From a virus, in the IMG/VR virus record IMGVR_UViG_3300034682_000252, positions 27,017 through 91,016 of that record: a stretch of DNA of 64,000 nucleotides; one strand, 5' to 3'. Of the stretch, positions 34,547 through 56,074 are shown piece after piece (the stretch's first letter is position 1; the number at the start of each line of letters is the position of its first letter). Made by a program: the position numbers and the translations under genes. The notes below the pieces were generated by a model. It was not told where the DNA came from. It saw only the letters and a program-made list of their open reading frames with translations, and did no database searches.

Positions 34547-35512
34547 TCAGCGCAAGCGGAGCTCGTGACCGAAGTCGATAGCACCAGGCACGACTGGCGG
34601 CCGGCCATGTTGCGGCACGGATACCGGGTCGCGCTTGCCAAGCGGCAGGCTGCCGAGATCAGAGCGTGACAGGCTATCAAGGAACTGACGCAAGATCTTG
34701 GCATCGTCCGGGGTCGCCATGGTGGCAATGGCCCGACGCTGGTCCTTGGTCAGCATGACCGGGTACGCCTCCAGGGCATCCATCATGACCTGTTCGCGCT
34801 GCAGAGCGGCCGCCTTTGCCTCCTCCCGGGAGGCCTCCAGATCCTGGGCCAGCTTGGCCGAGTGCTGGCGCTGCTCAGACAGCATCCCATCGAGCATCAT
34901 CACATCGTAGAGGCTGGCCTCCTCAATGCGGCGAGCGGCGGATACCTGCACCCAGCTATCCAGCATCGCCACATAGGCGTCACGGTCCATGCCAAGCTCA
35001 GCGATCATCGCCTCCCCTGCTGAATCCAGCATCGCGCCCTGGCGGGCCAGCGGCACAAAGTTGGGCTGGGCTACGTAGTCGAACCCGTACATCACCTGGG
35101 GATGGTCCCCGGTGTAGTTGCTGGGGCCGGTTACCGCCCAGGACCAGCCACCAGCATTCGAGTCGAGCATGGAGCACACGATAGCCCCGGACGGGGTATC
35201 CAGGATCTCCTGGGTGTGGTGCAACGTGCCGTCGTCGTCCAGGCTGATGGCCACCAGCCGGTTGCTGGGGACGTTCTGCATGATGACCGGCTTCCCGTCG
35301 AGCATCACCACCTCCTGCTCGGCCGGCTTCATCTTGCCGGATAGCGAGCGGGCCGTGTGGCCGAAGTAGCCGAACAGCTCGCCCAGGCGCAGGCCTTCTT
35401 GGGTGGCTGCTGAATCCAGCATCTTCTTGACGGAATGGTGAACATAGCGGCGCCCGTTGTGGCCGGAGCGGCCTTCCTTGTGGATGTTGATCGAGGTCTC
35501 TACGCGCCTCAT
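34547..35512 (-). CDS. pro: Prohead protease/scaffold candidate (P1 Pro position)
   Basis: 321 aa, ATGA-coupled to the portal gene. N-terminal 190 residues are alpha/beta with a His-rich start (GRRYVHHSVKKMLDSAATQE), SMLDSNAGGWSWAV and VMYGFDYVA. About 190-240 is a coiled coil (QRQHSAKLAQDLEASREEAK), then a C-terminal helical end. In P1 the gene after the portal (prt) is pro, the head-maturation protease. I cannot place its catalytic residues with confidence, so the call rests on synteny and layout. Confidence 0.6.
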   Translation of the reverse strand: MRRVETSINIHKEGRSGHNGRRYVHHSVKKMLDSAATQEGLRLGELFGYFGHTARSLSGKMKPAEQEVVMLDGKPVIMQNVPSNRLVAISLDDDGTLHHTQEILDTPSGAIVCSMLDSNAGGWSWAVTGPSNYTGDHPQVMYGFDYVAQPNFVPLARQGAMLDSAGEAMIAELGMDRDAYVAMLDSWVQVSAARRIEEASLYDVMMLDGMLSEQRQHSAKLAQDLEASREEAKAAALQREQVMMDALEAYPVMLTKDQRRAIATMATPDDAKILRQFLDSLSRSDLGSLPLGKRDPVSVPQHGRPPVVPGAIDFGHELRLR

Positions 35513-37209: not shown

Positions 37210-37331
37210 TGGCTGACCTCCCATTGGCGCTAGGACCATGGGCGGGAGGGGGAAGGGGGGCAAGCGGGATCATATCTGATTGCGGCGGCTCGATGTGGAT
37301 CGTCCAAAAGCCAAATGGTTTCGCAATGGGG

Positions 37332-37370: not shown

Positions 37371-40300
37371 ATGCCCACTACCATTGTGGCAAATGCGATC
37401 GCCGCCATCTTGCAGGCCCGCGACATGTCCGGGCTGATGGCGGAATACGATCGCCTGTTCCCTACCTCCAGCCGCGCCAATGCGATCTACGGCGTCGAGA
37501 AGGCCGACGGCGTATCTATCGAACGCGCCCGCAAAGAGGCCAATGAGCGCGTCTTGGGCGTCCTGCAGCGGGTCGGCAACAATGCCGCCATGCTGACCGA
37601 AGAGGAAAAGGCCATCTTGCGCCAATACTCCGGCCTGGGCGGGATCGGCGGCTCCATTCACGAGTATTACACCCCGCAATGGGTGGCCGGGGGCATCTGG
37701 GATCTGATGGCCGCCATGGGCCAGGGCCCGGGTAACTACCTGGAGCCCTCCGCGGGCGCCGGCGTATTCCACGGCACAAAGCCGGCCGGGGTGCTGATGA
37801 CCGCCACCGAGATCGACGAAACCAGCGCCCAGGTGAACAAGCTCCTCCACCCCGAGGACAAGGTGGTGAACCAGTCGTTCGAGGCGCTGGCCGTCGCCAG
37901 CGAGGATGATAGCTGGGATGGGGCCGTGGGCAACGTGCCGTTTGGCGAAACCCGGGGGAGCTATGGGGCGCTCGATCCCGAGTACGCCCACATCAAGTAC
38001 GTGGACCAGTATTTCGTTTCGCGCATCCTGGACAAGATCAAGCCTGGCGCACTGATGACCGTGGTTGTCCCCATGCGCATCGTCAGCGGCGCCAAGTTCA
38101 AGAAGTGGCGGGCCGAGATCAGCCTGAAAGCCGAGTTCCTGGGCGCTCACCGCCTCCCCTCCGGCACTTTCTCCAACAACGGCACCGACACCGCCACCGA
38201 CATTCTGGTCATGCGCAAGCACCCGGCCGGCCTGGCTGAACTGGTGAACGGCCGGAAGAAGCCAGACCTTGAAGCCGCCAACGTGCTTTGGGACACCTTC
38301 ATCAACGGCAAATGGTTTGAGACTGCCGAGGGTAAGCGGTTCGTCCACGGCGAGCAGTCCATCCAGGGCGCCGGCAAGTTCGCCCGGACCGTCGTCGAGA
38401 AGGGCGGCACCACCAACGAGCAGATCCGGCAGCGCCTGGCCCACAAGTTCGAGTCGCGCATTGACTGGCTCGCCCTGGAGCTGGTGGCCCCGGTCACGCC
38501 GACCTATGACGAAGGCGACGAGCGAATGATCAACGGCCGCTGGCGCCGGCTGGTCAACGGCACTTGGCAAACCACCTCGCTGGTGGGTGGCGATGGCGAC
38601 ACAATCAGCAAGGACGAGTACGGGGTGGGTTCACTGCGCCAGCTCAAGACCATGTTGGAACAGTCCCCCTTGAGCGCCCTGGAGCTGAACCATAGCCACC
38701 TGCTGGCCATACACCGCGACTTCCCGGACGCCACTGATGGCATCGTCGGGGACGCCATTCGGCTCGCCAAGGAGCAGCCAGCCGAACACCGGGCCCGCAT
38801 CGTGCGCGGCGCCATCATCGGTCACCGCATCCAGGGAATGCTGGGTGAGATCAACAGCGCCGGCTTCATCCCCACTGAAACCGCCGCCGAGTTGCGTGAT
38901 CTGATCAGTGCGGAGATCAGCACCTTTGGGGTGGCTGCTGCTGATCGCAAGCTGGCGACCCTGGGGGGCGGCAATGCGGCCGGCGCCTGGAATGCCTTTG
39001 TGACCGCCACCGACGTGAACGGCCAATTCAGCGCCCTGCTGAAAGGCACCCTGGATCGCGGCCCAGTTCGCGCCTTTGACGACACCAGCGCCGCCCAGAC
39101 GGTTGCTTACCTGTTCGGCCAACTTGAGCTCAACCCGGTCGATCTGTCTGACTTCCTGGACCTGTACCGCGGCGACGAGGGCAAGACCCTGACCGAGCTG
39201 GCGAAGATCCCAGGGGTGGCGATCACGCCGGCTGGCATGTTGATGCCGATGGACCGGGCCACCAGCGGGAACATCGTCGAGAACCGCCGCAAGGTGATGG
39301 CCGCCATGGGGGCAGAGACAGATCCCGCCATCCTGGCGAACTACCAGACCCAACTGGACGAGATCGAGCGCCGGCGCTACCGGGCCAAGGTCGATGACAT
39401 TGAAATGACCATGGCCGCCAAGTGGCTGCCAAGGAGCTTGGTCGCCGAGTTCCTGAAAGATCAGGGATACAGCTCGCTCCAATACTCCAAGATCGTGACC
39501 AATGAAGATGGTGAGCTGGTCGAGGACAAGGAGTATCAGGGTAACGATGGGGTGTGGAGTGGCTACGGCGTCCGGGATGGCAAGAAGCGCTCCAACGTCA
39601 ATGAGCAGTTCGAGCGCCAGCTCGAGAACTACCTCAACGGGATCGCCGTGCGCTCTGGTGACGCTGCCGGCGCGGCCGCATACCGCGAGCGCATCAAGGG
39701 CATTGAGGAGCGGTTCGCTATCTGGCTGCGCCAGCATGACGACATAGACAAGCTGGCGGATCTCTATAACGACAGCTTCAACGGCCATGTGGCGTTTGAG
39801 CACTCTGACGCTGACCTGGAGCTCGAGGGCATTTCCGGGCGCATCGTGCCGTTCGGCTATCAGTGCTCCGGGATCCGCCGCGCCTCGGAAGATGGGCGCG
39901 GAATGCTGGCCTACGGGACAGGCCTCGGCAAGACCGCCACCGCCTTGGGCCTGGCCGCCTACAACAAGCAGATGGGCCGCGCCAAGCGGACCGGGATCGC
40001 CGTGCCGCTGGCCGTGCTGGAAAACTGGTACCACGAGGCCAAGACCTTCTACAGCGAGGACGCTTTCAGCCGCGTGTTCTTTGTCGGCCTGGAGCCAGTT
40101 CGCAACAAGGACGGCGCCATTGAGCAGGAACAGATCCTCGATGACGAGGGCAACCCCCGCCTGGGCGCCAACGGCCAGGCGCTGACCCGGGACAAGCTCA
40201 AGGCCCTGGGCACCAAGGAAGTGAAAGCCCGCCTGAACGCCATCCCACAGTCCAACTATGACGTGGTGGTGATGAGCAAGGAGCAACTGGCCACCATCCC

Positions 40301-43300
40301 TATGCGCCCCGAATCTATCGTCGCCCACGCCGATCGGATGGAAGCGGCAGGCCTGCGCGGTGGCAAGATCCTGGCGACAGCCAAGAATCACCGCGAGGCG
40401 ATGAAGAAAGAGAAGTTCGCCGAGAAGCACAGCAACACTGGCACCGTGAAGGCACTCGATATTCCCTACTGGGAGGATATGGGATTCGACAACCTGATCA
40501 TTGACGAGGCCCACAACTACCGGAACAGCTACCAGGCCGGCCGCGAGTCGTCCAAGCTCGCTTACTTGCCCACCCAGGCCTCCGCCAAGATGGCGATCGA
40601 TCTGGCGGTGAAGTCCGCCCACATGCGGGAGAAGAACAACGGCCGCGGCCCGGTGCTGCTGACCGCCACCCCGACCGTGAACAGCCCGATCGACATCTTC
40701 AACATGCTCTCCCACGTCGTCAGCATCGACGAATGGGGGCAGATGGGGATCACCGACGTGGACGACTTCATCAAGGTGTTTGGCGAGGTCGAGGACGTGA
40801 TGGTCCAAAAGCTCTCCGGCGAGGTGGTCAACAAAGAGGGCCTGGTGGGGTTCAAGAACCTGTCCGGTCTGCGCTCCCTGTTCCACCGCTGGGTCAACCT
40901 CAAGGACGCCAAGGACGTGAGCCACACGGTCACTATCCCGGATCTCGAGGAGACGCTGACCGAGGCGGACATGACCGATGAGCAGGCGGCCGTCTATGAG
41001 GACCTGCGCCAGCGGGCCGAGGCCTTGAGCAAGGGCCAGTCCAACGACGAGAACGGCAACCCGACTGACTTCACCTTTGCGATCATCCGTGACATGGACC
41101 GGGTGTGTTCGGACATGGACCTGTACCGCCGCACCATGACTTTCCGCTTCCCGCTCAAGTACGGCGAGGCCGTGGAGAAGCTGGTGGCCGACTTGCCCAC
41201 CAGCATCAATGACGCCGCCATCGAGGACGACAAGCAGGACGAGGACGCCGACAAGACGGTTATCCAGGCCAAGCTGGACGCCAAACTTTCCACCAGCGAC
41301 CACGCGATCACCCTGGTGGTGCCCGAGGCCTACGAGCAGGAGGTGGTAAGCCGGCTGGACCAGTTCGGCATCACCGCCAGCGACGTATCCCACCCGCTCA
41401 TGCCCAAGTACGCCCGTATGCTGGAAAATCTCAAGCGGGGCCACGAGGAGGGCGGCAAGCAGATCATTTTCACTGAGGAGAAGTCGCAGCACGAGAAGCT
41501 GAAACGGATCATCGTCAATAGCCTGGGCATTCCCGCCGAGCAGATCGGCATCATCAATGCCAAGACGGTCAGCTCCAAGGGGGTGGACGGCGAACAGGCC
41601 AGCCTGGAAGGGTTTGCCGGCGCCTACAACGAGGGCAAGATCCGCATCCTGATCTGCAACAAGAAGGCCGAAGTGGGTGTGAACCTGCACCACGGCACTA
41701 CCGACATTCACCACCTCACTCTCCCCTGGACACCGGCGAGCATCAAGCAGCGCAACGGCCGCGGCGCCCGCGTCGGTGCCAAGCAGAAGAAGGTGCGAGT
41801 TCACTACTACGTGGGCAAGGGGTCGTTCGACCAATTCCGCCTGGAAACCCTCAAGCGCAAGGCCAACTGGCAGCATGAGTTGTTCACGTCCGACGCCGAG
41901 AAGATGAAGAACGCCGACGCCGACGACGCCATGGACGCGAGCCTGTTGCTGGCCGCCGACCCCGAGGAGCGCCGCGCCCGCATCGAGGCGAACCAGGCCA
42001 AGGCCCGCGCCAAGATAGAGGAAGCCGCCCGCCGCCGCGCCGGGATCGATCTTCACAACTACCTCAAGGCAGCCCACGACATGGGCGGGGACCCCGAGGA
42101 AATGCGGATTAACGCCGCCAATCTGAGGCAGCGGATCGCGACGCTGCAGCAGCAAGCCCAGAACAGCCAGGAATGGGCCGAACGTAACCTGGCCGAATCC
42201 AAGACCAGCCAGTATGGCGGTAATTACTACCTGTCAAAGTACCGCGCCAACTTGCAAGAGGTGGAGGCATACAACGAGCAGGCCCGCCAGGCCCGCAAGA
42301 GCCTGACTTTAGCCGAGCGCAAGATGGAACGCGCCGCCAAGGCGGCCGACTCACTCAAGCGCCTGCGCCCCTCCCTCGAGCAGGCCATCAAGAAGGGCTT
42401 GCTGGACGCGCCGGCTGACATTCTGGACAAGGGCTATGAGTACCTGACAGATGGCATCGTGACCGTGCGACTGGGGCACCACTACCAGACCGGCACAGGG
42501 TCTATTTTGCGAGTGGATAAGCTGGACTTTGACGGCAAGCAGGCATTCGCCACCACGATCCATGTTCCACCGAGATCCAAAGGTATGTTCAAGTCCGGGG
42601 ATACTGGCTGGTGGGGGATCGGCGGCCTCAAGACCGAAGTCAGCTACACCCCGAGCGAGCTGGACGTGTGGCGAGAACTATCCTCTCCCCTCCCCCTCTC
42701 CCGCGCCGTGCAACTGCTGGATGGCGGGCTGTTCAGTCAGTACCTGGTCAGCAAGTCGCTCGCCTTGGTGACGGATTACTACCTGCTGCATAGCGCCGAT
42801 GGCGACGGGTTCGAGGTGGTCTACCACCCCTCCTACAGCGACAAGCCGATGACCAAGGACCAATTGGCCCGCGTCGTCTACCCGGACAGTGGCAATGCAG
42901 GCCTCAAGGCCAAGCTGGCCAAGTGGCTGATGGCCGACCGTTCCCGGATGACAAAGAGCAGTTACGGCAGCGCCCAGGAGGCACCGCCCGCCTGGCTCAC
43001 CGAGCTGTACGGGGCCAATGTGATCACCGCAGTTGAGGAGTACGGCAACAAGGCGCCTGATCAGGTGGTGAATGAGTGGCTGGCTGCCAGCCTGGACAGC
43101 TACCGTGCCAGCAGCAAGATCGACCCGGACCGCACCTCGATCTATCACTACTACTTTGAACCTCACGCCAAGAAGCTGATCCCGGCAGAGTGGAGCAACC
43201 GCAGCGCCTTCGAGGCGGCCATCAAAGCTGGCGAGAAGATTTTGGAAGCCGAGGCCGAGGAGGAGAAGAAGGCCCACCAGGCCCGCAAGAATGCCGCCGC

Positions 43301-44051
43301 GGCTGCCCAGTTCGCGCTGGCCCAGCAGGACACCGACCGCGCCGCCATCGCCGAACGCCTGACCTGGATCCGGGACACCGGCAAGATCTACCGCGAAAGC
43401 AACGGCTACACCATCGCCGGCAAGCTGCGCGATGAGAAAGGCGCACCCTATGCCCAGGAGGGGGCATTCAGCCTTGCCCGGGCGGTTGCTGACATGGTGG
43501 CTGCCGGCCTGATTGTCCCACCTGCAGAAGTCACAACGTCCAGCCTGCGCCAGGCCTGGGACAAGGGGGTTTACGAGCTGTTCAGCAGCTACAGCGCCAG
43601 CGCGGCCACACTGCAAACCTGGCTCGATGGCGACAAACCCAAGGAGGAGCCGGCGCCAGAGCCCACCCAGGAGGAGCAGGCCGACAAAGCCACCGCAGAG
43701 GCCACCCTCGAGGCGGTGAACGCGGGGGATACCCACATCGGCAACGTGCTGGTGCGCCGCAATGCCATGCCCATCAACCAGCCGGCCAGCAAGACGCAAT
43801 TCCGCGGCCGCTGGCGAACCCGCCCCGCCGTCAACAAGGCCATTGGCGAGGTGATCGGCCTGTTCGACGAGCAGGGTAAAAACGGGGTGCTGTATGACAA
43901 GAAAGAAAACCTCAAGGCCGCTTTCGGTCAGGGCCGGGGCCTTGTATTCTTCACGGATTCGGTATCAGACGAGTATCCGGGCGGCTGGTGGTTCCTGCCT
44001 GCCTCTGCAACCCTTGAAGAAATCGCCAACGTGCTGGGAGTGACCCAATGA
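37371..44051 (+). CDS. darB: DarB-like giant antirestriction protein (methyltransferase-helicase)
   Basis: 2226 aa (P1 DarB is about 2255) from ATG 37371 with GAGGTG. N-terminal methyltransferase: motif I EPSAGAG near residue 124, catalytic-type NVPFG near 190. SF2 helicase: Walker A GTGLGKT near 848, LIIDEAHN near 1044, TATPTVNSP near 1100, and motif VI QRNGRGARVG near 1459. Then coiled coils (about 1530-1700) and a long C-terminal region. DarB is carried in the P1 head and injected, protecting incoming DNA from type I restriction. Beside portal and protease, as in P1. Confidence 0.92.
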   Translation: MPTTIVANAIAAILQARDMSGLMAEYDRLFPTSSRANAIYGVEKADGVSIERARKEANERVLGVLQRVGNNAAMLTEEEKAILRQYSGLGGIGGSIHEYYTPQWVAGGIWDLMAAMGQGPGNYLEPSAGAGVFHGTKPAGVLMTATEIDETSAQVNKLLHPEDKVVNQSFEALAVASEDDSWDGAVGNVPFGETRGSYGALDPEYAHIKYVDQYFVSRILDKIKPGALMTVVVPMRIVSGAKFKKWRAEISLKAEFLGAHRLPSGTFSNNGTDTATDILVMRKHPAGLAELVNGRKKPDLEAANVLWDTFINGKWFETAEGKRFVHGEQSIQGAGKFARTVVEKGGTTNEQIRQRLAHKFESRIDWLALELVAPVTPTYDEGDERMINGRWRRLVNGTWQTTSLVGGDGDTISKDEYGVGSLRQLKTMLEQSPLSALELNHSHLLAIHRDFPDATDGIVGDAIRLAKEQPAEHRARIVRGAIIGHRIQGMLGEINSAGFIPTETAAELRDLISAEISTFGVAAADRKLATLGGGNAAGAWNAFVTATDVNGQFSALLKGTLDRGPVRAFDDTSAAQTVAYLFGQLELNPVDLSDFLDLYRGDEGKTLTELAKIPGVAITPAGMLMPMDRATSGNIVENRRKVMAAMGAETDPAILANYQTQLDEIERRRYRAKVDDIEMTMAAKWLPRSLVAEFLKDQGYSSLQYSKIVTNEDGELVEDKEYQGNDGVWSGYGVRDGKKRSNVNEQFERQLENYLNGIAVRSGDAAGAAAYRERIKGIEERFAIWLRQHDDIDKLADLYNDSFNGHVAFEHSDADLELEGISGRIVPFGYQCSGIRRASEDGRGMLAYGTGLGKTATALGLAAYNKQMGRAKRTGIAVPLAVLENWYHEAKTFYSEDAFSRVFFVGLEPVRNKDGAIEQEQILDDEGNPRLGANGQALTRDKLKALGTKEVKARLNAIPQSNYDVVVMSKEQLATIPMRPESIVAHADRMEAAGLRGGKILATAKNHREAMKKEKFAEKHSNTGTVKALDIPYWEDMGFDNLIIDEAHNYRNSYQAGRESSKLAYLPTQASAKMAIDLAVKSAHMREKNNGRGPVLLTATPTVNSPIDIFNMLSHVVSIDEWGQMGITDVDDFIKVFGEVEDVMVQKLSGEVVNKEGLVGFKNLSGLRSLFHRWVNLKDAKDVSHTVTIPDLEETLTEADMTDEQAAVYEDLRQRAEALSKGQSNDENGNPTDFTFAIIRDMDRVCSDMDLYRRTMTFRFPLKYGEAVEKLVADLPTSINDAAIEDDKQDEDADKTVIQAKLDAKLSTSDHAITLVVPEAYEQEVVSRLDQFGITASDVSHPLMPKYARMLENLKRGHEEGGKQIIFTEEKSQHEKLKRIIVNSLGIPAEQIGIINAKTVSSKGVDGEQASLEGFAGAYNEGKIRILICNKKAEVGVNLHHGTTDIHHLTLPWTPASIKQRNGRGARVGAKQKKVRVHYYVGKGSFDQFRLETLKRKANWQHELFTSDAEKMKNADADDAMDASLLLAADPEERRARIEANQAKARAKIEEAARRRAGIDLHNYLKAAHDMGGDPEEMRINAANLRQRIATLQQQAQNSQEWAERNLAESKTSQYGGNYYLSKYRANLQEVEAYNEQARQARKSLTLAERKMERAAKAADSLKRLRPSLEQAIKKGLLDAPADILDKGYEYLTDGIVTVRLGHHYQTGTGSILRVDKLDFDGKQAFATTIHVPPRSKGMFKSGDTGWWGIGGLKTEVSYTPSELDVWRELSSPLPLSRAVQLLDGGLFSQYLVSKSLALVTDYYLLHSADGDGFEVVYHPSYSDKPMTKDQLARVVYPDSGNAGLKAKLAKWLMADRSRMTKSSYGSAQEAPPAWLTELYGANVITAVEEYGNKAPDQVVNEWLAASLDSYRASSKIDPDRTSIYHYYFEPHAKKLIPAEWSNRSAFEAAIKAGEKILEAEAEEEKKAHQARKNAAAAAQFALAQQDTDRAAIAERLTWIRDTGKIYRESNGYTIAGKLRDEKGAPYAQEGAFSLARAVADMVAAGLIVPPAEVTTSSLRQAWDKGVYELFSSYSASAATLQTWLDGDKPKEEPAPEPTQEEQADKATAEATLEAVNAGDTHIGNVLVRRNAMPINQPASKTQFRGRWRTRPAVNKAIGEVIGLFDEQGKNGVLYDKKENLKAAFGQGRGLVFFTDSVSDEYPGGWWFLPASATLEEIANVLGVTQ

Positions 44052-44470
44052 TTGCCGTAACCATTACCCCGACCGCCGACGAACTGGCGCCGCTCCTGGC
44101 CGAGGCGACCGCCAAGCAGGACGAGGAGACATTCATCGCCAACTACCTGGCCGGCCTGGTTAAGATCCTGGGCAGTGACCCGCGCCAGTATCGCAGCTTC
44201 GGCCCCTACTGGTGGCCACTCAAAGGCATGATGATCGAGCGCGGCATTCAACCCGGGGCCGGCTCCCTGGAGCTGGGCACCCTGCAGCACTACACGCTGG
44301 GCACCCCCGCCCTGACGCTTTGCGCCGCTTGGGCTTACCAGCAAGAGCGCATCGAGGAGGGCAAGATCCGCACCGCCAGCCACCAGCTCGAGCTGGCAGA
44401 AGGCGAGCTCTATGAATACGTGCTGGTGGATGAGGACATGGAGGCCTTCATCGAGCGCACCAGGCGCTAA
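44048..44470 (+). CDS. Hypothetical protein coupled to DarB-like gene
   Basis: 140 aa, ATGA overlap with the end of darB. Helical and acidic (DELAPLLAEATAKQDEETFI; QLELAEGELYEYVLVDEDME) with a Trp-rich middle (YRSFGPYWWPLKGMM). Conserved coupling points to a partner or late protein of the DarB unit. Function unknown. Confidence 0.65.
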   Translation: MIAVTITPTADELAPLLAEATAKQDEETFIANYLAGLVKILGSDPRQYRSFGPYWWPLKGMMIERGIQPGAGSLELGTLQHYTLGTPALTLCAAWAYQQERIEEGKIRTASHQLELAEGELYEYVLVDEDMEAFIERTRR

Positions 44471-46673: not shown

Positions 46674-46754
46674 TTCGGGCACCCTAGCCCAACTACACAA
46701 ACTGTAGGCTGGAGCGGGGAAGGGGAAACGGGCACTTCGGTGCCCGTTTTTTTT
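46674..46754 (+). ncRNA. Possible short rightward RNA
   Basis: No rightward gene lies here, yet a strong rightward terminator is present: ACGGGCAC-TTCG-GTGCCCGT followed by T8 (46728-46754). A transcript starting near the motif at 46664 would be about 80 nt, opposite the leftward operon. No good -35 box, so low confidence. Confidence 0.35.
46728..46754 (+). terminator. Rightward rho-independent terminator
   Basis: 8-bp GC-rich stem with TTCG loop and eight T. Confidence 0.85.
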
Positions 46755-47136
46755 ATTGCTCCAATCTGCCCAGCAGTTCGTAATGCTCTGCCACCCGGCG
46801 CGGCACCACGCCATCCAGCAGCATAGCGGCCGGTTCGTCCAGGGATTCGCCGTCATCGTCCACCAGCTCCTCCCCGTCCAGATCTGCCGGCGCATCTTCC
46901 ACGCCAGCGACCTCTATCCCCATCATACGGAAGAACACACCCTGAATCCCCATGGCGGTATAGGAGCCTGGCGCCATCGAGACGCCGCGGCCGTCATCCT
47001 CGCCGTTACAGAAATCCTCAAAGCTCGCCTGGAGAGAGGCCGGTTCGACCTCCATTGCACAGCGATAATCTGAGGTTGGGGCGGCCAGGGTGATCGTCGC
47101 CGGCACATCCAGGTAAACCAGGGTCAACACCTGCAT
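46753..47136 (-). CDS. Hypothetical protein sharing a motif with the upstream polyvalent protein
   Basis: 127 aa, overlapping the upstream stop as TAATG. Its middle YTAMGIQGVFFRMMG matches YGAMGIQGVETTEVFSMG near the end of the upstream protein, with a 21-bp identical DNA stretch (46937-46957 and 47284-47304). Acidic C-terminus. It may be a split-off or co-functioning domain of the large protein. Function unknown. Confidence 0.65.
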   Translation of the reverse strand: MQVLTLVYLDVPATITLAAPTSDYRCAMEVEPASLQASFEDFCNGEDDGRGVSMAPGSYTAMGIQGVFFRMMGIEVAGVEDAPADLDGEELVDDDGESLDEPAAMLLDGVVPRRVAEHYELLGRLEQ

Positions 47137-50100
47137 TACTTCGCCTCCTTGTATTTGATGCCAAGCATCTTAATGGCCGCCATCACCATAGCCAGGTGCT
47201 CTGGATCCGCCATAGCCAGCTTTGCCAATTCTACATCGGTGGTCAGGGCCTGGAAGCCCATGGAGAACACTTCCGTGGTTTCCACACCCTGAATCCCCAT
47301 GGCGCCGTATATCTTGCCCACGTAGGGGTGATAGAACCCATCGTTTACCGCCACCTCGTTCTTGTACGATTTGACCCCGGTCATGTGCTTGAGATACGCG
47401 ACCTTACCCTTCTCGCTGGGGATGGCGTCCGAACGGCGAGCCAAGAGCTGCTTGGCAGCAAGCAGAAGCTCGGGGTTTTTGTACTCAACAAAGTGACCCA
47501 TTTCATGCCATAGGGTGGTCTTGGTCATCCCCTCCCCGCTGTTGATATGGTTGTTTTCCAGACTGGCATAAGCTCGCTTCTTCTTGCGCACGAGCTCTGG
47601 CGTCCCCATCTGCCCGGATACCACCTGGTAGAATCGGGCCATGTCGGATTTCATGGTGGCCATGTCATAACCGGGCGCCAGGCTGGCAGCAGAGATCCGC
47701 ACTTTCGTCCCAGCCACCATCTTGGCCGCCTCTCTTTCGGGCATGACGCCGGTCAGTTCGTCAACCATGGCCCGCAGCGGGGCCACCCCCTGCACCAGAG
47801 GCTTGTTTCCACTCTCCCGGAGAAGTGTGGCGTAGTGGCGATACAAGCTGACGGCCGCGGAAACAGCCACTTGATAGCCTGGCTGGCCGCGCTGCTGCTC
47901 AATGTAGGCCGTCACCGCCTCATAGGTCCGAATGTCATAATGGAAGCCGCCCGCATCAACGATATTGCCGGCTGACCGGGCCATGACGTCAGACAGGCCT
48001 TCACGCTGCGCCGGCGTCAGCGCCCGATACTCAGGGTTGCGGGCCAGTTCGGCCAACACCTGCTGCTTGTTCATGTGGCGGATAGCCGCGTCGGTAATGG
48101 CCTCCTCCCTGGCTTGGGTTGTCACCGACAATGCCAGCGCTCGGATCTGCCGCTCAAACTCGCCGGTATCGCGCTCAAACTGACCCTCCTTGTTGGATGT
48201 CATCATGTCGAACAAGGCCACCACCTGCCCCACACTCTCGGCATCGCGAACGAACCTTGCGGCCCTTGCAGCCCGAACCCGAGTGGGAAGATCGGCCGCC
48301 ACGGCGTCAAACATTCCGACCTGGATCCCACCCTTCTCGCCGTAGAGCTCGGCCATGTGGTCATTGACGCGGGCCAGCACGGTTACCAGGTCAACCGGTG
48401 GCTCGCCGAACATGTCCGCCACCACCTGGCCCTTGTGCTCCAGGATCTGGCATATCTCTTCGGCCATGACCGTGAAGGCCTCCGCCATGCGCTTCACCGA
48501 GCGGTTATTGGCCGCGATGAACGACGCCAGCGCGGCGGCCTGGGGATCGGCACCGCCGAACATGTCCCCCTGTTTCAGGTACTCCTCCACCGACTGGCCA
48601 GCGTCCCGGGCTGCCCGGACGATCGTCGTTGCGTCCACCAGCGCGGACAGGGCCTCCTCGTCCAGGGTCTTGGTCAGAGAGACGCTTTCGACCAGGGCGT
48701 CGGTGGTCTGCTTGTGGGCCTCCCCGGACAGGGTGCGCATTGTCACGAACTGGGGCGCCGCGTTGGTCAGGGCACTCAGGACGTTGCGGATCTCGGGGTC
48801 CGGCTCCTCAACGGCCAGGCGCAAAAGATCCTCATGCTGATAGGCCTTGGCGAACACTGCCGCCCGGATGCGCTCGATCACCTGCCTGGTGGGTCTGCCA
48901 TCGGGGGTCAGCAACCCGGCCGCCTGCTCGCTGGTCAGCTTTGCCAGGAAGGCAGAAACGAAGGGGCGATTAGAAGCCGCTAGGAAGTCGCCAGACGCAC
49001 CAGGGGAGAACAGGGCCATTACCCCCTCGTCCATGGCCTCCGCGTCGATTCTGGCCTGCTCTGTGGGGCTCATGGCCTGCATGTCCGACACGTTGCTATC
49101 TTTGGCGAACTGGGCGCGGTCCACTTCATCCAGGCGCACCCGCACCAGCACGGGCGAACTGAACGCCTTCACCTGGGTGGGCGTGAAGCCATAGAGCTCG
49201 GCGTTGTCCTCCAGGTACTGCCGGTATTCGCCGGCGTTGCCCTCGGCGTAGGCCTTGATGATCGCCATCGAGCGGCCATTGCCCGACTCCACCACTTTGT
49301 CAGGGCCGATGATCGGTGCGCCCTGGCTGGATAGCCCAGAGTCAGCCAGCCGCGCCGGCTGCAGCGAGCGGGAGAGCTTGGTGATCTGCATGACGCTGGC
49401 CACCCGGGTCCGGTCCCGCGGTTGCAGCTCCTGGGGATAGGCGCCGTTGGGCTTGCCGTCCAGGCCGTTGGAGGCGATCAGGGCGTTGGCCTCGATCAGC
49501 TTGAAGGCGGTACGCACGGACGCACCCTTGACGGTGGCGACGTAGCTCACGCGACCATGATCAAACTCGTCCTCCCCCAGCGGCTCAAATTGCACATCCA
49601 ACACAATGAAATCGAGTGGCGCGGCGTCGTCCAGGTAGTTGGAATCGAGCCCGTTAACGGCTACACTTGAATCACCAGGGGCAATGCTTGTATCTGGGGT
49701 ATCGGTGGTCGGTCGGCCGGTACGGAGTTCCAGTGGTCCTGTCCTGCTATTGCCCTCGACCCCAACACTTTCCAGGAATACCCCCACCGCCCCCGGGCGG
49801 CGATAAACCACGTCCCCCTCCTGCATCTTCCGGCCTATCTGGCTCGACTTGATGTGGTGCGAACTGACCACCACCTCATCCCCGGCCCTCTGCACAGTCA
49901 CGCAAACGAACCCCCGCACCTTGCCGTCTGGCTTGGCGATCGCATTCACGAACAGGTAATTGAAATCCCGCTCATCCCCGGGAGTGCCGCGGCGCTCTTT
50001 CAGCACCACGAGCGGATTTTCCAGGGTGGGGCGGATCCAGCCTGCGTATTGGACCCTACCCTTCGCCCCGAGCTTATCGAGTTGGTTTGCGCCGAACCGG

Positions 50101-50330
50101 ACAGGCCCGATCACCGTCTTGATGGTGGCCCCCATGAGCTCGGCAAGCTGCTCATCGCTGATCTCGGGATCTATGGCATGAGCATTGGCAGCCAGAATGT
50201 CCGCGAGGTGCTGGGGACTGTTCTTGGCTGGCGGCGTCTGGGTGGTGAGCTCGTCGAATACTTCCACCAGCTCGGTGCTGGTGGTGGCCGCCAGAACGCT
50301 CTGGATGGCCTTGTTTTTGCGGTCTTGCAT
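47136..50330 (-). CDS. ddrB-like: DdrB-like polyvalent protein with nuclease-like, ParB-like and zincin domains
   Basis: 1064 aa from ATG 50330 (GAGGGG upstream). Residues about 90-165 resemble a phage Barnase-EndoU-ColicinE5/D-RelE (PBECR) nuclease domain (NPLVVLKERRG, VVVSSHHIKSSQIGRKM). About 280-420 is a ddrB-type ParB fold (VVESGNGRSMAIIKAY). A long helical region follows. HEMGH at about 942-946 marks a C-terminal zinc peptidase. Such multi-domain proteins are co-packaged and injected to counter host defences. Last large gene of the leftward 46753-56017 operon. Confidence 0.8.
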   Translation of the reverse strand: MQDRKNKAIQSVLAATTSTELVEVFDELTTQTPPAKNSPQHLADILAANAHAIDPEISDEQLAELMGATIKTVIGPVRFGANQLDKLGAKGRVQYAGWIRPTLENPLVVLKERRGTPGDERDFNYLFVNAIAKPDGKVRGFVCVTVQRAGDEVVVSSHHIKSSQIGRKMQEGDVVYRRPGAVGVFLESVGVEGNSRTGPLELRTGRPTTDTPDTSIAPGDSSVAVNGLDSNYLDDAAPLDFIVLDVQFEPLGEDEFDHGRVSYVATVKGASVRTAFKLIEANALIASNGLDGKPNGAYPQELQPRDRTRVASVMQITKLSRSLQPARLADSGLSSQGAPIIGPDKVVESGNGRSMAIIKAYAEGNAGEYRQYLEDNAELYGFTPTQVKAFSSPVLVRVRLDEVDRAQFAKDSNVSDMQAMSPTEQARIDAEAMDEGVMALFSPGASGDFLAASNRPFVSAFLAKLTSEQAAGLLTPDGRPTRQVIERIRAAVFAKAYQHEDLLRLAVEEPDPEIRNVLSALTNAAPQFVTMRTLSGEAHKQTTDALVESVSLTKTLDEEALSALVDATTIVRAARDAGQSVEEYLKQGDMFGGADPQAAALASFIAANNRSVKRMAEAFTVMAEEICQILEHKGQVVADMFGEPPVDLVTVLARVNDHMAELYGEKGGIQVGMFDAVAADLPTRVRAARAARFVRDAESVGQVVALFDMMTSNKEGQFERDTGEFERQIRALALSVTTQAREEAITDAAIRHMNKQQVLAELARNPEYRALTPAQREGLSDVMARSAGNIVDAGGFHYDIRTYEAVTAYIEQQRGQPGYQVAVSAAVSLYRHYATLLRESGNKPLVQGVAPLRAMVDELTGVMPEREAAKMVAGTKVRISAASLAPGYDMATMKSDMARFYQVVSGQMGTPELVRKKKRAYASLENNHINSGEGMTKTTLWHEMGHFVEYKNPELLLAAKQLLARRSDAIPSEKGKVAYLKHMTGVKSYKNEVAVNDGFYHPYVGKIYGAMGIQGVETTEVFSMGFQALTTDVELAKLAMADPEHLAMVMAAIKMLGIKYKEAK

Positions 50331-50381
50331 GTGACCCCTCAAAGGGGGCTGACGGGGAAGGGTGGGCACCCCCGCCGAGGT

Positions 50382-51455
50382 TTAAGCGGCGATAAGCTCG
50401 GGGTTCGCTTCTATCCAGCGGGTCACACCGGCTTTCACGTCATCGAGCGCCATCCCCTCATCGGCCACGGCCAGGATCCGCTTGCGGAAATCAACGGGCG
50501 ATTCCTGGTTGAAATCGCCGCGCAAGTAGCGCATCGAAAGAGTTTCCTCGGGCTCCTGCTCCTGCTCGGGCTCCTGTTTGAGGGCGGCAACTCTGGTTCG
50601 CAGACCATCCAGGATCTGGCTGTAGCGCTCTTGGTCCTCGGCGGGCAGCGCTTCCACAAAACGGTCAAAATCCTCAATGGAGATCGGTTTGGCGCGGCCC
50701 ATTTCGGCGGAAAGCACCTCGCCCCCAAGGAGAGTCAGGGAGGCGGCGGTATTGCCGTCTGCAATGCTCTCCATGACCCCCTCCATGCCTCGGTGCTGAT
50801 ATTTCAGATTGGCATAGGCAACTTCCAGAGCAGGCCCAAGGGTAGCCATCCCCTCAACAAACACCTCTCCCTTGTAGCCAAGTTGCACGGCGCCATAGGA
50901 CCACTTGGCAATCGAGTAATCCCCCACGCCGTTTTTGTATATGTCCTTGGCTGCCCTGATGGCCTGTTCGACCATGTAGCGCACCTTCTTGCGCTTATCG
51001 GCTGGGAAGTAGCTCTTAATCCCCTTCCAGGCATTTTCAGCGGGGAAGGCCTGATCAGCGCTCCAGCCCGAATAACCAATTTTGAAGGCATCACGCCCCG
51101 CGCCTTGCTCGGTCGCCCACAAGATCACCACACCAAGCGTCTCATTGGAAACAAGCGCGGTGGCCTTGCTGCTTTTCTCATAGACCTTCGTCCATGCTGG
51201 GTGCTGGACCCCGCCGATAGCCAAGCCCACCAGCGAGCGGCGGGTGGCTTCTTCGGCCTCTTGATCGCTCCCCTCCTCGTCCACCTCGGCCGGCGCCGGC
51301 TTCACAGCATCACCCTTGAGCTTTGCCATGATTGCGGCCAGTTCGCGCTGCTTGGCCAGCTTATCGAGAATGCCGAGCTCGCCGGCTTTCAGTTCGCTTT
51401 TGAGGGTGGCGGCCTGCTTCTGCAGGCCCACCTTTTCCAGAATGCTCAATGCCAT
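50382..51455 (-). CDS. Hypothetical protein of the polyvalent operon
   Basis: 357 aa, TAATG overlap with the gene upstream. Coiled-coil N-terminus (about 1-50), acidic linker (EVDEEGSDQEAEEATRRSL), a mixed domain (about 75-215; GRDAFKIGYSGWSADQAFPA, KWSYGAVQLGYKG) and a helical C-terminus with Glu/Gln repeats (EQEQEPEETL). Probably a packaged partner of the proteins around it. No known domain recognised. Confidence 0.7.
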   Translation of the reverse strand: MALSILEKVGLQKQAATLKSELKAGELGILDKLAKQRELAAIMAKLKGDAVKPAPAEVDEEGSDQEAEEATRRSLVGLAIGGVQHPAWTKVYEKSSKATALVSNETLGVVILWATEQGAGRDAFKIGYSGWSADQAFPAENAWKGIKSYFPADKRKKVRYMVEQAIRAAKDIYKNGVGDYSIAKWSYGAVQLGYKGEVFVEGMATLGPALEVAYANLKYQHRGMEGVMESIADGNTAASLTLLGGEVLSAEMGRAKPISIEDFDRFVEALPAEDQERYSQILDGLRTRVAALKQEPEQEQEPEETLSMRYLRGDFNQESPVDFRKRILAVADEGMALDDVKAGVTRWIEANPELIAA

Positions 51456-54400
51456 TACGCGGCCTCCTCCATCAGTTCGGTCAGACGGTCAGCGACCTTG
51501 TGCAAGTAAGGTTCGTGACGCTCAACGGCACCGGCCTGCTCGAGCTGTTCGATCAGGGAGCCCATGCCCTCCAGGTACACCTGGTAATCACCCTCGCCGG
51601 TGCGCAGGGCTTCCAGTTGCTCCAGGAGCGCCAGGATAGCCGGGTCGGCCTCATCCCACTGGTTGCTGGTGGCGGGTGGCTCGTCGCCGCCTGGCTGCTC
51701 GGTACCGCCCTCGGGAGGCAGTTCATCGCCCTCAGTCACGGGCGGGGTGGCCGCGGCGCGGGCCTTGTCGATCATGCTGTTTGCCATGGCTTTGACGCTC
51801 CCGGTATAGCCGGCCTCTTGCAGGGCCTGGGTGAGTTGGCCGCTCTCGTACTTGCCATCGACAAAGAACGGGTTGTTGGTTTCGGTCAGGGAGCCCTTTG
51901 GCTTAAACAGCTCATTCCAGATCTCTTCGTCGGTTTCCTCCAGTTCGACCATGCGGACCACCACCTCCTCCAGCTCAGCCAGGCGAGCGGCACGGGATAC
52001 CGGGCTCCACACTGCCGCGGCCATGTCCTCCAGGGAGTAATGGTCGATCTGGTCCTTGGTCAGCGGCTCCAGGTAGGCAATCATGCCGTGGCGCCAGCCG
52101 GTCGGGTCGCGGTCCTTGATCAGCTCGGCCACGCGGGCATCGCCGGCGACGTCATCCTGGGGGATGTGGGCGACCACGCCATCCGGCTGGGTGCCCAGGC
52201 CGTAGGGGCGAACGCGCATCCCATACCAGTAGAGCGGAGTCGCCTCGGTGGGCTCCTCGACCGTCTCGGTCGTCGGGGGCGGCTCGACCGGCTCAGGATT
52301 GCGCTTGGCGAATGCCTCATCCACATCTTTCTGATAGGCGGCCTCCATAGCTGCCTTGGCCTCATCCCAATGCCTTACCTCAGTGGCACCGGTGATTGGG
52401 CCGCCGTCGCCATAGAGCACCGCAAAGGAACCGGTCGGCTCATTGTCCGGGCCCACATTCGCCCTGATGTAAAAGCCATCATGGAATTGCTCATCAATGG
52501 CGGGGGTGTCGATCATGAGCACCGGCACAATGGGATCACCTTCTCCCCCCTCGCCCAGCTCGCTAAAGCTCGAGCGCCAATCCTTCTCAAGCCGACCGGT
52601 GATGAACGCGGCCAGGGCGTTTTTGATCAACTCCCTGTTTCTCTCGAAGTTGTCCTCTTTCAGGCGGTAACCGGCAGCCTTGCCGCTCTTGTAGGCCTTG
52701 TAGAGTGTGCTGGTGGCATCATCCATCGCCCCGCCCTGGGAGCTGGTAGAGAAGATGCGGTAAACCGTGCCGTCCTTCTCGACAATCGAGATATACCCCT
52801 CAAGATCGCCGCTGGCATCGGCATAACGACGGGAGATAACGGCGCCATTGGTCAGCGTCATCTGGCCGTGAATGCTCAATTGCTGCTTGATGTAGCGAAT
52901 CCCATCCTCGGGCAATTCATCCGTCTTGATGGTGTCCTTGCTGACTTCCTCCATCGGAATGGTGCCGCCGTCGGTCAGCAGGTACTGGCCGCGATTCTTG
53001 AAGCCCTGGCCGTCCCAGGTGTAGCGCTTGGCCGCCACGCCCGGGGTGCCAGGGGTCACGTCGATCACCTTGTCGGTGGAGTTGACCACCTGCATCCCGC
53101 CCAGCTTGCCGCCCGTCTGGGGTCGGTTCTGCAGGGTGACAAGCGCCCCCTTGGATTCGTTGCCGGTCAAGGTGGGCTGGGCTGGTTGCGCGGCCGGAGC
53201 GTAGTAACCGCCATCAGCTTGCAGCGCGGCGATCAGCTTCTCTTTCGGGTAGGTGCCCGCGATCAAGGCGGCGCCATCAAAGCGAACCGGGGCGCCCTTC
53301 TTCTCTCTAAATGGCATCCGATCCGTGATTTGATTGGCCTGTAAGCGGTCGAGCTCAAAGTAATAACTGAGAAGGAACGTCATGTAGCTACGGGGGGTAG
53401 GATTGATCCCCGTCTCTATGCCCGCGATTGACACTGAATAAACAATATCATCGACCAAACCGGTCAGCGCCTTTCGCTCTCTCTCGCTGGTGGCTGGGTC
53501 ATCGGGGTTTGAGAGAAACACATCCTGCCCATAACTGCCTTTTGGCCAGCCAGCCATGACGTTCACGGCATCAATGGTTTTCGCCCGTATTTTCCCAATC
53601 TCGCCGGCCGTGCGCTTATGCGACTTGGCCCAGTGCTCAGCCTCATCCGTCGAGTCAAACCCGGCTGCAATCTGGTACTCATTCACCAGCATGACGCGAT
53701 CGGGATTCTGCTCATTGATCAGCTTCCAGCCAGTGCCGGTGATTGTCTTGCTGGCCCGCTCCTGCTGGCGCTTGGCCGCGGCGTTATCGTAGTGCTGGGA
53801 AATGGTGATTTTCGGGGTTTCGCCCTCACCGACCAGACCAGGCGTGACAGGTTGAACTACCGGAGCCGGTTCGGCGACCTTGCCCAGGCCTGCCAGCGTC
53901 TTGCGCAGCTCCTCATTGCGCTGGATCTGGCTGGCCAGTTGCCCGTTGACCTTGGCGAGCTCGGCGTCAGTGCTGCCCTTGGCATCTGCCAGGGTATCCA
54001 CCTGTTCGCTCAGCAGCTCGGCCTGCTTCATGTGCTGTTCGGTATCAGCCTCCAGGGTGGCCAGCTCCTCGGCCTTGGCCTTGTTGTCTGCCTGCTTGGC
54101 GGCAAACTTGGTGCTGTTGCGCTCTGCCAGGTTGGCGAGCGCCATGGTGGTCTGCTTGAGGGAAATATCCCGCCCCTTGCTGGGGGCGACAACGTGGGTC
54201 ACATCCCGTTTGTTCAAGAGGAACCGGAACGCGACCAGGGTGTCCGCCGCGGTGATCTTGCCCGGGTCATTGCTGGGGCTGTGGAAAATCACAAAGATGG
54301 ATTGCCCATCAGACAGGGGGATCTCGGCGGAGAGTACCGCCACGTCGCCAGCCCTCTTGGGGTCGCCCACTTTGGCGTCAGCAGCCTGGATCTCAGTGCC

Positions 54401-54667
54401 GGTCAGCGCCTGATTCAGCGCCCGATTAAAGGCGCCCATGGTGCGGTCTATGCGCTGGTGGGTCGTCACAATGGCATCGGTGAATGCCTGCTCGCCACGG
54501 CCAGCCAGGCCGTAGAGATAGGTCGCCTCAATCTCCTCCAGGGTTGCCGGCTCCAGCATCATGGAATCATCCCCCAGGGCGTCCAGGTAATGCTGCTCAG
54601 ACAGAGGGGCGGCCTTGTGGTCAATCATGTTGACCACACGGGCCCCGTTATGAAGGGCATAAATCAT
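51455..54667 (-). CDS. Large polyvalent protein, possibly DarA-related
   Basis: 1070 aa. The N-terminal module (about 90-190: SAEIPLSDGQSIFVIFHSPS, FRFLLNKRDVTHVV) resembles the start of DarA-type defence-against-restriction proteins. A coiled coil (about 200-275) and several alpha/beta modules follow (about 300-620 and 620-860), with Pro/Thr-rich linkers, and a C-terminal helical part ends in LTELMEEAA. ATGA-coupled to the gene upstream. Presumed injected with DNA; the family call is tentative. Confidence 0.65.
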   Translation of the reverse strand: MIYALHNGARVVNMIDHKAAPLSEQHYLDALGDDSMMLEPATLEEIEATYLYGLAGRGEQAFTDAIVTTHQRIDRTMGAFNRALNQALTGTEIQAADAKVGDPKRAGDVAVLSAEIPLSDGQSIFVIFHSPSNDPGKITAADTLVAFRFLLNKRDVTHVVAPSKGRDISLKQTTMALANLAERNSTKFAAKQADNKAKAEELATLEADTEQHMKQAELLSEQVDTLADAKGSTDAELAKVNGQLASQIQRNEELRKTLAGLGKVAEPAPVVQPVTPGLVGEGETPKITISQHYDNAAAKRQQERASKTITGTGWKLINEQNPDRVMLVNEYQIAAGFDSTDEAEHWAKSHKRTAGEIGKIRAKTIDAVNVMAGWPKGSYGQDVFLSNPDDPATSERERKALTGLVDDIVYSVSIAGIETGINPTPRSYMTFLLSYYFELDRLQANQITDRMPFREKKGAPVRFDGAALIAGTYPKEKLIAALQADGGYYAPAAQPAQPTLTGNESKGALVTLQNRPQTGGKLGGMQVVNSTDKVIDVTPGTPGVAAKRYTWDGQGFKNRGQYLLTDGGTIPMEEVSKDTIKTDELPEDGIRYIKQQLSIHGQMTLTNGAVISRRYADASGDLEGYISIVEKDGTVYRIFSTSSQGGAMDDATSTLYKAYKSGKAAGYRLKEDNFERNRELIKNALAAFITGRLEKDWRSSFSELGEGGEGDPIVPVLMIDTPAIDEQFHDGFYIRANVGPDNEPTGSFAVLYGDGGPITGATEVRHWDEAKAAMEAAYQKDVDEAFAKRNPEPVEPPPTTETVEEPTEATPLYWYGMRVRPYGLGTQPDGVVAHIPQDDVAGDARVAELIKDRDPTGWRHGMIAYLEPLTKDQIDHYSLEDMAAAVWSPVSRAARLAELEEVVVRMVELEETDEEIWNELFKPKGSLTETNNPFFVDGKYESGQLTQALQEAGYTGSVKAMANSMIDKARAAATPPVTEGDELPPEGGTEQPGGDEPPATSNQWDEADPAILALLEQLEALRTGEGDYQVYLEGMGSLIEQLEQAGAVERHEPYLHKVADRLTELMEEAA

Positions 54668-55299
54668 GCTTCGCCTCCCAGGGCTTCAATCTGCTGGATC
54701 AGTTGGTTGGTGGTCGCCCGCTCCAGTTCCAGCTTGTTGCGCTGGCTCTCGAGCTCGCTGGTGCTGGTGGCCTTGGCGGCCTGCAGCTCCGCAATCCGGG
54801 CCTCTATGGTGGCGACGTTGGTCCTGGCGCCCGCGTTGGCAGCCTTGGCCTCGATGATCCGGGCCAGGATGGTGCGGCCGGCCGGCTTCTTCTTTGACTC
54901 GTCGGGATTAACCTGCTTTACCGCCTTGCGGGCGAGACTGTTATCCCAGCGGGCCTGACCGGCCACCACTTTGGCCGCCACCTCTTTGGCGTAGGCATCC
55001 ATGGTTTTCAGGGACTGTACCGGGATGATGGTCGTATTCAGCTTGGTTTCGATCACGTCGCCCTGGTCGCCCAGGGTGATGGTGATGGACTGCCCGCCTT
55101 CAAAGCGCAGCAGAGCCTTTTTCGTCGCCATCCGGTCCTTTCTGACCATGCGGTTGGTTGCCTCAACTTCCGCAACGGTCTGGCCGGCTTTCTTGAAGCT
55201 GGCAACCAGCTTCTTGAGGCCGACCTCAGTCACGTTGTCGAAATCGAGGGTGAAGTATTCAGCCTTGTTCTGGCTGTAACGTTCGTCTCTCTGGGTCAT
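54664..55299 (-). CDS. Coiled-coil protein with DarA_N-like start
   Basis: 211 aa. N-terminal beta-rich part (about 10-95; LDFDNVTEVGLKKLVASFKK, LLRFEGGQSITITLGDQG) followed by a helical module and a long coiled coil (LESQRNKLELERATTNQLIQ). The layout parallels the N-terminal 280 residues of the next gene, suggesting a shared module. ATGA overlaps on both sides. Confidence 0.65.
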   Translation of the reverse strand: MTQRDERYSQNKAEYFTLDFDNVTEVGLKKLVASFKKAGQTVAEVEATNRMVRKDRMATKKALLRFEGGQSITITLGDQGDVIETKLNTTIIPVQSLKTMDAYAKEVAAKVVAGQARWDNSLARKAVKQVNPDESKKKPAGRTILARIIEAKAANAGARTNVATIEARIAELQAAKATSTSELESQRNKLELERATTNQLIQQIEALGGEA

Positions 55300-55715
55300 T
55301 GAATTTGTACCTGTATGGTCTTTGAAGCCTTGAGCGGGAACAGGGAATAAAACGGGTTGCGGCGGCAGGTTGTGGTGATCCTGACTGTCAGCTCCCAGGG
55401 GCCCGGGGTGAGCAGGTTTTCACGGATCAGCAGGTACTCGTCGTTGCTGCCAATGGCGCAGCCGGCCAAGGAGCGGGTGCGGCCAGTAATAACGGTCGTG
55501 GGGCGCTTGCGGTCGCGGAATGAGTAGGTCACTTCCGACCAGTCAGGGTCAGAGGAGGCGTGATAGTGCAAGACGTAGCGGCGATAGCCGCCCTCACTGC
55601 CCGCCGGCTCCACCGTCACATCGGACACCTGGCCGCGCCGAAGGATAAGCCTATCCAACAACCCAGCCAGACCCGCGGCTGCGGCTGTCACGAGAAAAAG
55701 GGTGTTTCCGTCCAT
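55296..55715 (-). CDS. Membrane-anchored beta-domain protein
   Basis: 139 aa. One hydrophobic segment at about residues 5-20 (LFLVTAAAAGLAGLLDRLIL), then a beta-rich domain probably in the periplasm (RRYVLHYHASSDPDWSEVTY; PGPWELTVRITTTCRR). Next to the holin, so it may be a lysis regulator or spanin-like partner (inference). Confidence 0.6.
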   Translation of the reverse strand: MDGNTLFLVTAAAAGLAGLLDRLILRRGQVSDVTVEPAGSEGGYRRYVLHYHASSDPDWSEVTYSFRDRKRPTTVITGRTRSLAGCAIGSNDEYLLIRENLLTPGPWELTVRITTTCRRNPFYSLFPLKASKTIQVQIQ

Positions 55716-55717: not shown

Positions 55718-56017
55718 TTAGAACCTCATCAGTTTTTTCATGCCCTGGAGCAGACCACCTGCCAGCACACTAATTACTGCTGCTCCATTGTGCGTTGATG
55801 CAATCACCAGTAGGCAAACCAGCGGTTCAGGCCAGCGTTGCCATACCCCCAAGAAATAAACACTCCAGCCAGCGAGAGCCGCCGTCGTCAGCTCGGTCAT
55901 GAGCTCCCTCAAGCCCGCCCCCACTCGCTGATCTCGCCGACCCTGTAGGTAGGAGGCAATCCCACCAAACAGCGCCAAGCCTGACACCAGAGCGATCAGG
56001 CCAGGTTCTACTGTCAT
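55718..56017 (-). CDS. Putative holin
   Basis: 99 aa from ATG 56017 with GGGGG upstream. Three hydrophobic segments at about residues 5-23, 45-60 and 68-90 separated by a basic loop (QGRRDQRVGAGLRELMTELT), typical of small phage holins of the LydA/holin 2-3 kind. First gene of the leftward lysis and polyvalent operon. It would permeabilise the inner membrane for the amidase at 46172. Confidence 0.65.
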   Translation of the reverse strand: MTVEPGLIALVSGLALFGGIASYLQGRRDQRVGAGLRELMTELTTAALAGWSVYFLGVWQRWPEPLVCLLVIASTHNGAAVISVLAGGLLQGMKKLMRF

Positions 56018-56074
56018 CGACACCCCCACCTAAGAAGCCAAAAAAAGTCATCCATAAGCATCCATAAAATGGGG

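Follow-up and report, generated by a model that had tools for sequence, protein, structure and literature searches.

The window analysed here, 64,000 nucleotides of a 91-kb virus record (IMG/VR IMGVR_UViG_3300034682_000252), carries a dar anti-restriction operon of the phage P1 type, in which the DdrB protein ends in a predicted zinc peptidase of the zincin class and the ddrB gene overlaps a small gene, orf127, that occupies the position of P1 hxr. Among relatives of DdrB, this peptidase and its small partner are near-obligately paired, and in one Aeromonas relative they were lost jointly. It is tempting to propose that Hxr and orf127 act not in repression but as inhibitors, each of its own zinc peptidase, which is carried in the head and ejected; that the peptidase and partner would constitute a mobile two-part module of DdrB, MuF, portal and stand-alone proteins; and that P1 DdrB would be a delivery protein resembling the polymorphic toxins. 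We hold this wider proposal tentatively, somewhat short of even confidence. The explanation at its core, a P1-type dar operon encoding a peptidase together with a co-made inhibitor partner, we rate at about even.

The predicted peptidase module of DdrB

The genes and segments concerned are these:

47136..50330, minus strand: ddrB, 1064 aa, with ATG at 50330 and stop at 47136 (PF18763 E 4.7e-35; phrog_2299 E 1.9e-180)
49134..49529, minus strand: ddrB-type ParB domain, DdrB aa 268-399 (PF18763)
47139..47741, minus strand: predicted C-terminal zincin module of DdrB, aa 864-1064 (AlphaFold2 model and Foldseek neighbours)
47493..47507, minus strand: HEMGH active-site motif, DdrB H942, E943 and H946
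46753..47136, minus strand: orf127, the small partner gene, 127 aa, positional counterpart of P1 hxr
46726..46752, minus strand: GC hairpin CGGGCAC-CGAA-GTGCCCG 3′ of orf127, read directly and likewise found in the A. hydrophila relative

The ddrB ATG is immediately preceded by GAGGGG, and a longer reading from a GTG at 50369, which gives a 1077-aa frame, is possible. An initial annotation, made from the sequence alone, placed all the large proteins of the cluster correctly and numbered H942, E943 and H946 exactly. It had assigned three domains to the 1064-aa protein, namely a PBECR-like nuclease, a ddrB-type ParB domain and a HEMGH zinc peptidase. The latter two stand, the ParB domain being certain from its profile match, while the nuclease is only weakly matched, as described below.

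An alignment of 57 C-terminal modules shows conservation of the H/E/H residues of HExxH, of two Tyr residues and of a T-E-x-x-S stretch. Across 64 full-length carriers H942, E943, H946, Y1003, Y1008, T1019, E1020 and S1023 are invariant, and E1020, within the motif TEVFSM, is the candidate third zinc ligand. AlphaFold2 models the module with confidence (pLDDT 96.4, pTM 0.91). In Foldseek every leading neighbour of this model is a zincin; among them are PPEP-1, lethal-factor-type peptidases and ArdC, an anti-restriction protein. Their E-values, 0.18 or worse, suggest a distant clade and not a close relative, and no solved structure matched the zincin or partner profiles by sequence. From signature and model together, the prediction that the C-terminus of DdrB is a zinc peptidase is well supported.

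The peptidase and the idea of self-processing are already known. A C-terminal MPTase of P1 DdrB and its autoproteolysis were already proposed by Iyer et al. (2017, PMC5512222). The same zincin clade is also borne by MuF head proteins, by one protein with a lambda-type portal domain, by one PT-HINT (pretoxin) protein and by stand-alone genes. The MuF domain (PF04233), present in 13 of the 64 carriers, is absent from DdrB.

The partner gene

The stop of ddrB and the ATG of orf127 share one nucleotide (TAATG), and P1 hxr overlaps ddrB at the same place. This small gene was not recognised in the initial annotation; the four proteins which that annotation assigned to the cluster are real. Its product is 84% identical to the A. 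salmonicida homologue and 55% to that of Leclercia, and has no match in Pfam, PHROG or NCBIfam. P1 Hxr belongs to PHROG 2292, function unknown. Ten representatives of the partners gave no match over the cut-off in Pfam, and three gave none in NCBIfam.

In many P1-like genomes Hxr is labelled a putative repressor, apparently from 28% identity to Xre. We rejected an Xre-like repressor as the identity of Hxr and orf127, since neither Pfam and NCBIfam nor the Hxr model, a β-β-β-α-α-β arrangement with pLDDT 68, gives any helix-turn-helix.

The P1 annotation has no promoter between ddrB and hxr, and a promoter scan of the window gave orf127 none of its own. The hairpin 3′ of orf127 probably marks the end of the operon; it has too few T residues for the terminator rule, and the terminator scan lists 46665-46686 instead.

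Pairing of peptidase and partner

DdrB relatives, grouped at 90% identity, form 30 clusters. Of these, 19 encode a zincin, either within DdrB or next to it, and every one has the partner: profiles identify it in 16, and inspection of the overlapping open reading frame (ORF) identifies it in L189, L009 and L187. The partner is present in none of the 11 clusters without a zincin; one of these, L008, carries little weight because its ddrB is broken. The joint loss can be followed in the A. hydrophila phage-plasmid pASP-135 (NZ_CP016381), where a single deletion of ~1.5 kb, corresponding to about 46818-48306 of the window, removed the linker, the zincin and most of orf127 together. There the DdrB core runs in frame into the final residues of orf127, and the downstream hairpin is kept. 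Distances among partners correlate with those among zincins (partial Spearman 0.47) better than with those among DdrB cores (0.17).

The wider pairing was examined in 109 loci encoding this zincin, gathered from IMG/VR and GTDB genomes; a genome scan with the full DdrB confirmed no relatives, and the zincin alignment instead found 29. For 60 non-redundant C-terminal zincins we took the longest ORF starting between -25 and +15 nt from the stop. An ORF of 70-135 aa follows 49 of the 60, against 66 of 388 other genes of the same loci (Fisher odds ratio 21.7, p 5e-23). Chance small ORFs are thereby rejected, by the control genes and also by the homology of the partners. The start lies at -1, +2 or -5 nt in 61 of 96 loci, offsets that are consistent with coupled translation of zincin and partner.

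The partners comprise a P1 Hxr group, a larger group beside MuF and stand-alone zincins, an Aeromonas group, a family beside longer zincin proteins and a Streptococcus-type group. Their profiles match 77 ORFs in zincin loci, and 75 of these are directly 3′ of a zincin ORF; the other two are a fused downstream gene in L112 and a match in L089, a locus with no intact zincin ORF by motif search. Since the profiles were built from the same loci, the matches are partly circular; the absence of matches elsewhere is not. All 14 of the long downstream genes begin with a partner domain, which profiles recognise in 12 of them (L019 and L108, a duplicate pair, both counted) and phmmer in L043 and L032.

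These fused partners occur in L016, L019, L022, L023, L024, L026, L032, L039, L043, L100, L103, L107, L108 and L112, where the long gene follows an internal zincin. Some of the long proteins resemble further polyvalent proteins, that of L107 resembling, by eye, the DNA methylase type. Another locus, L076 (IMG/VR 3300017971_007885, 1-7871), has five neighbouring zincin genes, three of which are then followed by an ORF of 85-87 aa, a tandem array resembling toxin-immunity arrays.

The role of the partner

All six P1 Dar proteins have been detected in virions by mass spectrometry (PMC9024508), and they reportedly leave the head together with the DNA on ejection (PMC12810830). Packaging in P1 begins with Hdf and DarA, followed by DdrA, DdrB, DarB and Ulx (PMC12810830, PMC9024508). 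By homology, Hdf and DarA of the window would form a lining of the capsid to which DdrA, DdrB, DarB and Ulx are recruited, and all would be ejected with the DNA to blunt restriction. The suggestion in the initial annotation that these are head proteins entering the host with the DNA is thus supported by likeness to the P1 Dar proteins.

What is the small partner's part in this process? We infer that the peptidase would be made together with its translationally coupled partner, orf127 here and Hxr in P1. The partner would bind the newly made peptidase and hold it inactive in the producing cell, so sparing capsid, Dar and host proteins from cutting before packaging. DdrB would then be packaged and ejected, and only in the new cell would the peptidase act. 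Inhibition is the most economical reading because the partner is placed for co-translation, is lost with the zincin, co-evolves with it, lacks a promoter of its own and goes unnamed in the virion proteome. The P1 proteome paper (PMC9024508) does not name Hxr, though the similarly small DdrA was detected; together with the lack of a ddrB-hxr promoter, this fits an inhibitor that is made along with the peptidase and then stays behind.

Several observations weigh against inhibition. First, the association counts are uncorrected for shared ancestry, and the partner families are only weakly linked: in hhalign comparisons the P1 Hxr group matches the MuF-partner group with P 4e-4, the Aeromonas group containing orf127 matches the others marginally (P about 0.03), and the Streptococcus-type group appears unrelated to the rest. 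Zincin genes with no recognisable partner also exist, in L044, in L120 and as second copies in L083, L086 and L090. The Hxr model has no significant fold neighbour and no clear fold match. In P1, hxr is non-essential (PMC10695390), so that P1 can at least grow in the strain tested with DdrB unbridled. Finally, the joining of partner domains to the N-termini of long proteins suits an adaptor or a substrate no less than an inhibitor; since docking or a substrate tag could explain these fusions equally well, our confidence in inhibition is only moderate.

An alternative that we consider unlikely is that the zincin cuts DdrB or other Dar proteins at assembly or after entry, freeing the ParB and N-terminal domains, with orf127 merely timing the cutting. 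Such self-processing has been proposed for P1 DdrB and for polyvalent proteins generally (PMC5512222), but what is cited there in support is older work on a 76-kDa processed head protein, and a later cryo-EM paper (2026, PMC12810830) describes cleavage of DarA by Pro. Moreover, cis action is not required, as the zincin is a separate gene in the Vibrio-type loci L009 and L187, and several forms of DdrB that lack any zincin retain the core.

We regard as improbable a second alternative, of the kind proposed for MuF toxins: once injected, the peptidase would damage or reprogram the new host, and the small protein would serve the producer or the lysogen as an immunity protein. The presence of the same clade on MuF, portal and HINT carriers speaks for it, as does the tandem array of L076. 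However, in both P1 and the window the partner is inside a late operon with no recognised promoter of its own, an arrangement in which protection of a lysogen is not expected, and P1 is not known as a toxin-delivering phage.

Of similarly low probability is a docking or loading adaptor, a packaging chaperone by which the partner domain would attach the zincin protein either to the capsid or to the following protein, so that the pairing would be structural: although the partner domains stand at the N-termini of the long downstream genes, where the capsid-targeting signal of P1 DarB likewise lies (PMC9024508), most partners are stand-alone and have no cargo, Hxr is not named in the virion proteome paper, DdrB forms with neither zincin nor partner persist in nature, and the invariance of the zinc-site residues argues that the zincin is not merely a docking domain.

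The exchangeable ends of DdrB

In the 1077-aa frame of the window DdrB, residues 270-691 are 53% identical to P1 DdrB; to the protein of the A. salmonicida plasmid NZ_CP110646 the identity is 75.7% over 99%. Compared across its relatives, the protein is seen to consist of a conserved ParB core with exchangeable ends. The C-terminus is a zincin in P1, Aeromonas and Serratia, and an inorganic pyrophosphatase domain (PF18823 E 4e-56) in the Vibrio locus L009. A C-terminal domain is lacking in V. alginolyticus L012 and in a 465-aa form of DdrB found in several IMG/VR contigs, for example L133. In L009 and L187 the separate zincin gene is 5′ of the DdrB core.

At the other end of the protein lies the stretch that the initial annotation took for a nuclease:

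49800..50120, minus strand: PBECR2-like N-terminal stretch of DdrB, aa 71-177 (PF18810 E 5e-4, under the gathering cut-off)

The window protein scores 20.7 bits against PBECR2, and the cut-off of 27.1 is not reached. The A. salmonicida copy is also under the cut-off, and the A. hydrophila copy is just under or just over it, depending on the search. In a comparison of the three copies, the candidate catalytic His of the likely N-terminal helix is present in A. hydrophila (NQHDKLG), the corresponding residue being Leu in the window (NQLDKLG) and also in A. salmonicida. As this is the only His of that helix, an active PBECR2 nuclease at the N-terminus of the window protein is doubtful. Relatives of PBECR2, sought in 18 cellular genomes for their catalytic residues, gave no matches. 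A tblastn search of 50,697 phage records found the PBECR2-like N-terminus in no other phage and matched only two Aeromonas plasmids; in two annotated collections the stretch is confined to three P1-type elements of Aeromonas, the window and these plasmids. It is thus present in some Aeromonas elements and absent from P1.

The dar operon and neighbouring genes

Besides ddrB and orf127, the operon and its surroundings contain the following genes:

50382..51455, minus strand: ddrA-like gene, 357 aa (phrog_1855 E 1e-4, first 59 aa only; gene position)
51455..54667, minus strand: darA, 1070 aa (PF18788 E 1.5e-33; PF18789 E 4e-8; phrog_1926 E 3e-111)
54664..55299, minus strand: hdf, 211 aa (phrog_1620 E 5e-40; PF18788 E 4e-6)
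55296..55715, minus strand: lydB-like lysis gene (phrog_1898 E 5e-18)
55718..56029, minus strand: lydA-like holin (phrog_1527 E 4e-15)
37371..44051, plus strand: darB, 2226 aa (phrog_1685 E 0; 38% identity to P1 DarB over its length)
44048..44470, plus strand: ulx, 140 aa, directly 3′ of darB (33% identity to P1 Ulx)
35509..37263, minus strand: portal protein (40% identity to P1 Prt)
34547..35512, minus strand: prohead protease, P1 Pro homologue (35% identity to P1 Pro)

From 56029 downward, the minus strand encodes LydA-like, LydB-like, Hdf, DarA, DdrA-like, DdrB, the 127-aa ORF and an amidase. The P1 record is annotated lydA, lydB, hdf, darA, ddrA, ddrB, hxr, an order also given in PMC10695390. 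The hdf, darA, ddrA and ddrB genes are adjacent and in P1 order after lydA and lydB, ddrA being recognised weakly, by its first 59 aa. The darB and ulx genes lie nearby but outside the operon, beside those for portal and prohead protease, an arrangement like that of P1. DarB carries a Walker A motif (GLGKT) and DEAH, and its naming as DarB-like in the initial annotation was correct. The 1070-aa protein and the two coiled-coil proteins noted there are present as well but had not been recognised as DarA, Hdf and a long DdrA-like protein. DarA matches the NCBIfam family anti_RE_DarA with E 3e-80, yet falls under the cut-off of that family.

With the common gene order and 53% identity of the DdrB cores, the likeness to P1 is judged far beyond chance. 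On its sequence the cluster is a P1-type dar anti-restriction operon, the basic system being already known; a new type of operon was rejected, as gene content and order are those of P1. The element that carries it is assigned to the P1-type Aeromonas phage-plasmids, with the cluster as its late dar operon. The gene set and order agree with those of the P1 Dar system (hdf-darA-ddrA-ddrB, ulx-darB), all six Dar proteins being recognisable, and portal and prohead protease are beside darB. In contrast to P1, DdrB has an extra N-terminal PBECR2-like domain, the DdrA-like protein has 357 aa (P1 DdrA 121 aa) and DarA has 1070 aa (about 640 aa in P1).

The A. salmonicida element NZ_CP110646 and pASP-135 have the same operon, with ~85% DNA identity over ~70% of the region. 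DdrB of A. salmonicida is 148 residues longer than that of the window, chiefly in the linker, whereas that of pASP-135, apart from its deletion, has an extra N-terminal domain. DarA of the window has, at aa 262-476, ~215 residues that are extra with respect to the orthologues of both elements and are partly matched in A. hydrophila YURI 17. In pASP-135 (L003 12971-15402) genes for DUF2235 and an acyltransferase lie between amidase and ulx, and are absent from the A. salmonicida relative. Elsewhere in the window are a 2451-aa tail-fibre-type ORF (56579-63934) with many repeated PHROG matches and a 513-aa ORF (26979-28520) with no PHROG match.

Relation to polyvalent proteins and MuF toxins

The polyvalent proteins of Iyer et al. 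(PMC5512222) join the same domain types (MPTase, PBECR, DdrB-ParB) in one injected chain; the accessible sections of that paper mention neither a partner gene for the MPTase nor a P1-type DdrB combining PBECR2, ParB and zincin. MuF polymorphic toxins (Jamet et al. 2017, PMC5576092) are head-carried, some have a C-terminal metallopeptidase, and a small downstream ORF follows. DdrB, however, is not a MuF protein, the partner here is a recognisable, partly fused domain family, and the accessible text of PMC5576092 makes no link to P1 DdrB or Hxr. Jamet et al. made the same small-ORF argument for MuF toxins generally, so the idea of pairing has a precedent of its kind. In the literature searched we did not find it extended to P1 DdrB and Hxr, nor the partner described as a recognisable domain family.

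P1 is a model phage, yet we found no demonstrated role for the DdrB peptidase or for hxr. If the proposal of a cognate inhibitor is true, the classic Dar anti-restriction system would be linked to the MuF toxins that temperate phages carry, and the repressor label found in many P1-like genomes would be corrected; the pairing is directly testable in P1 and E. coli K-12.
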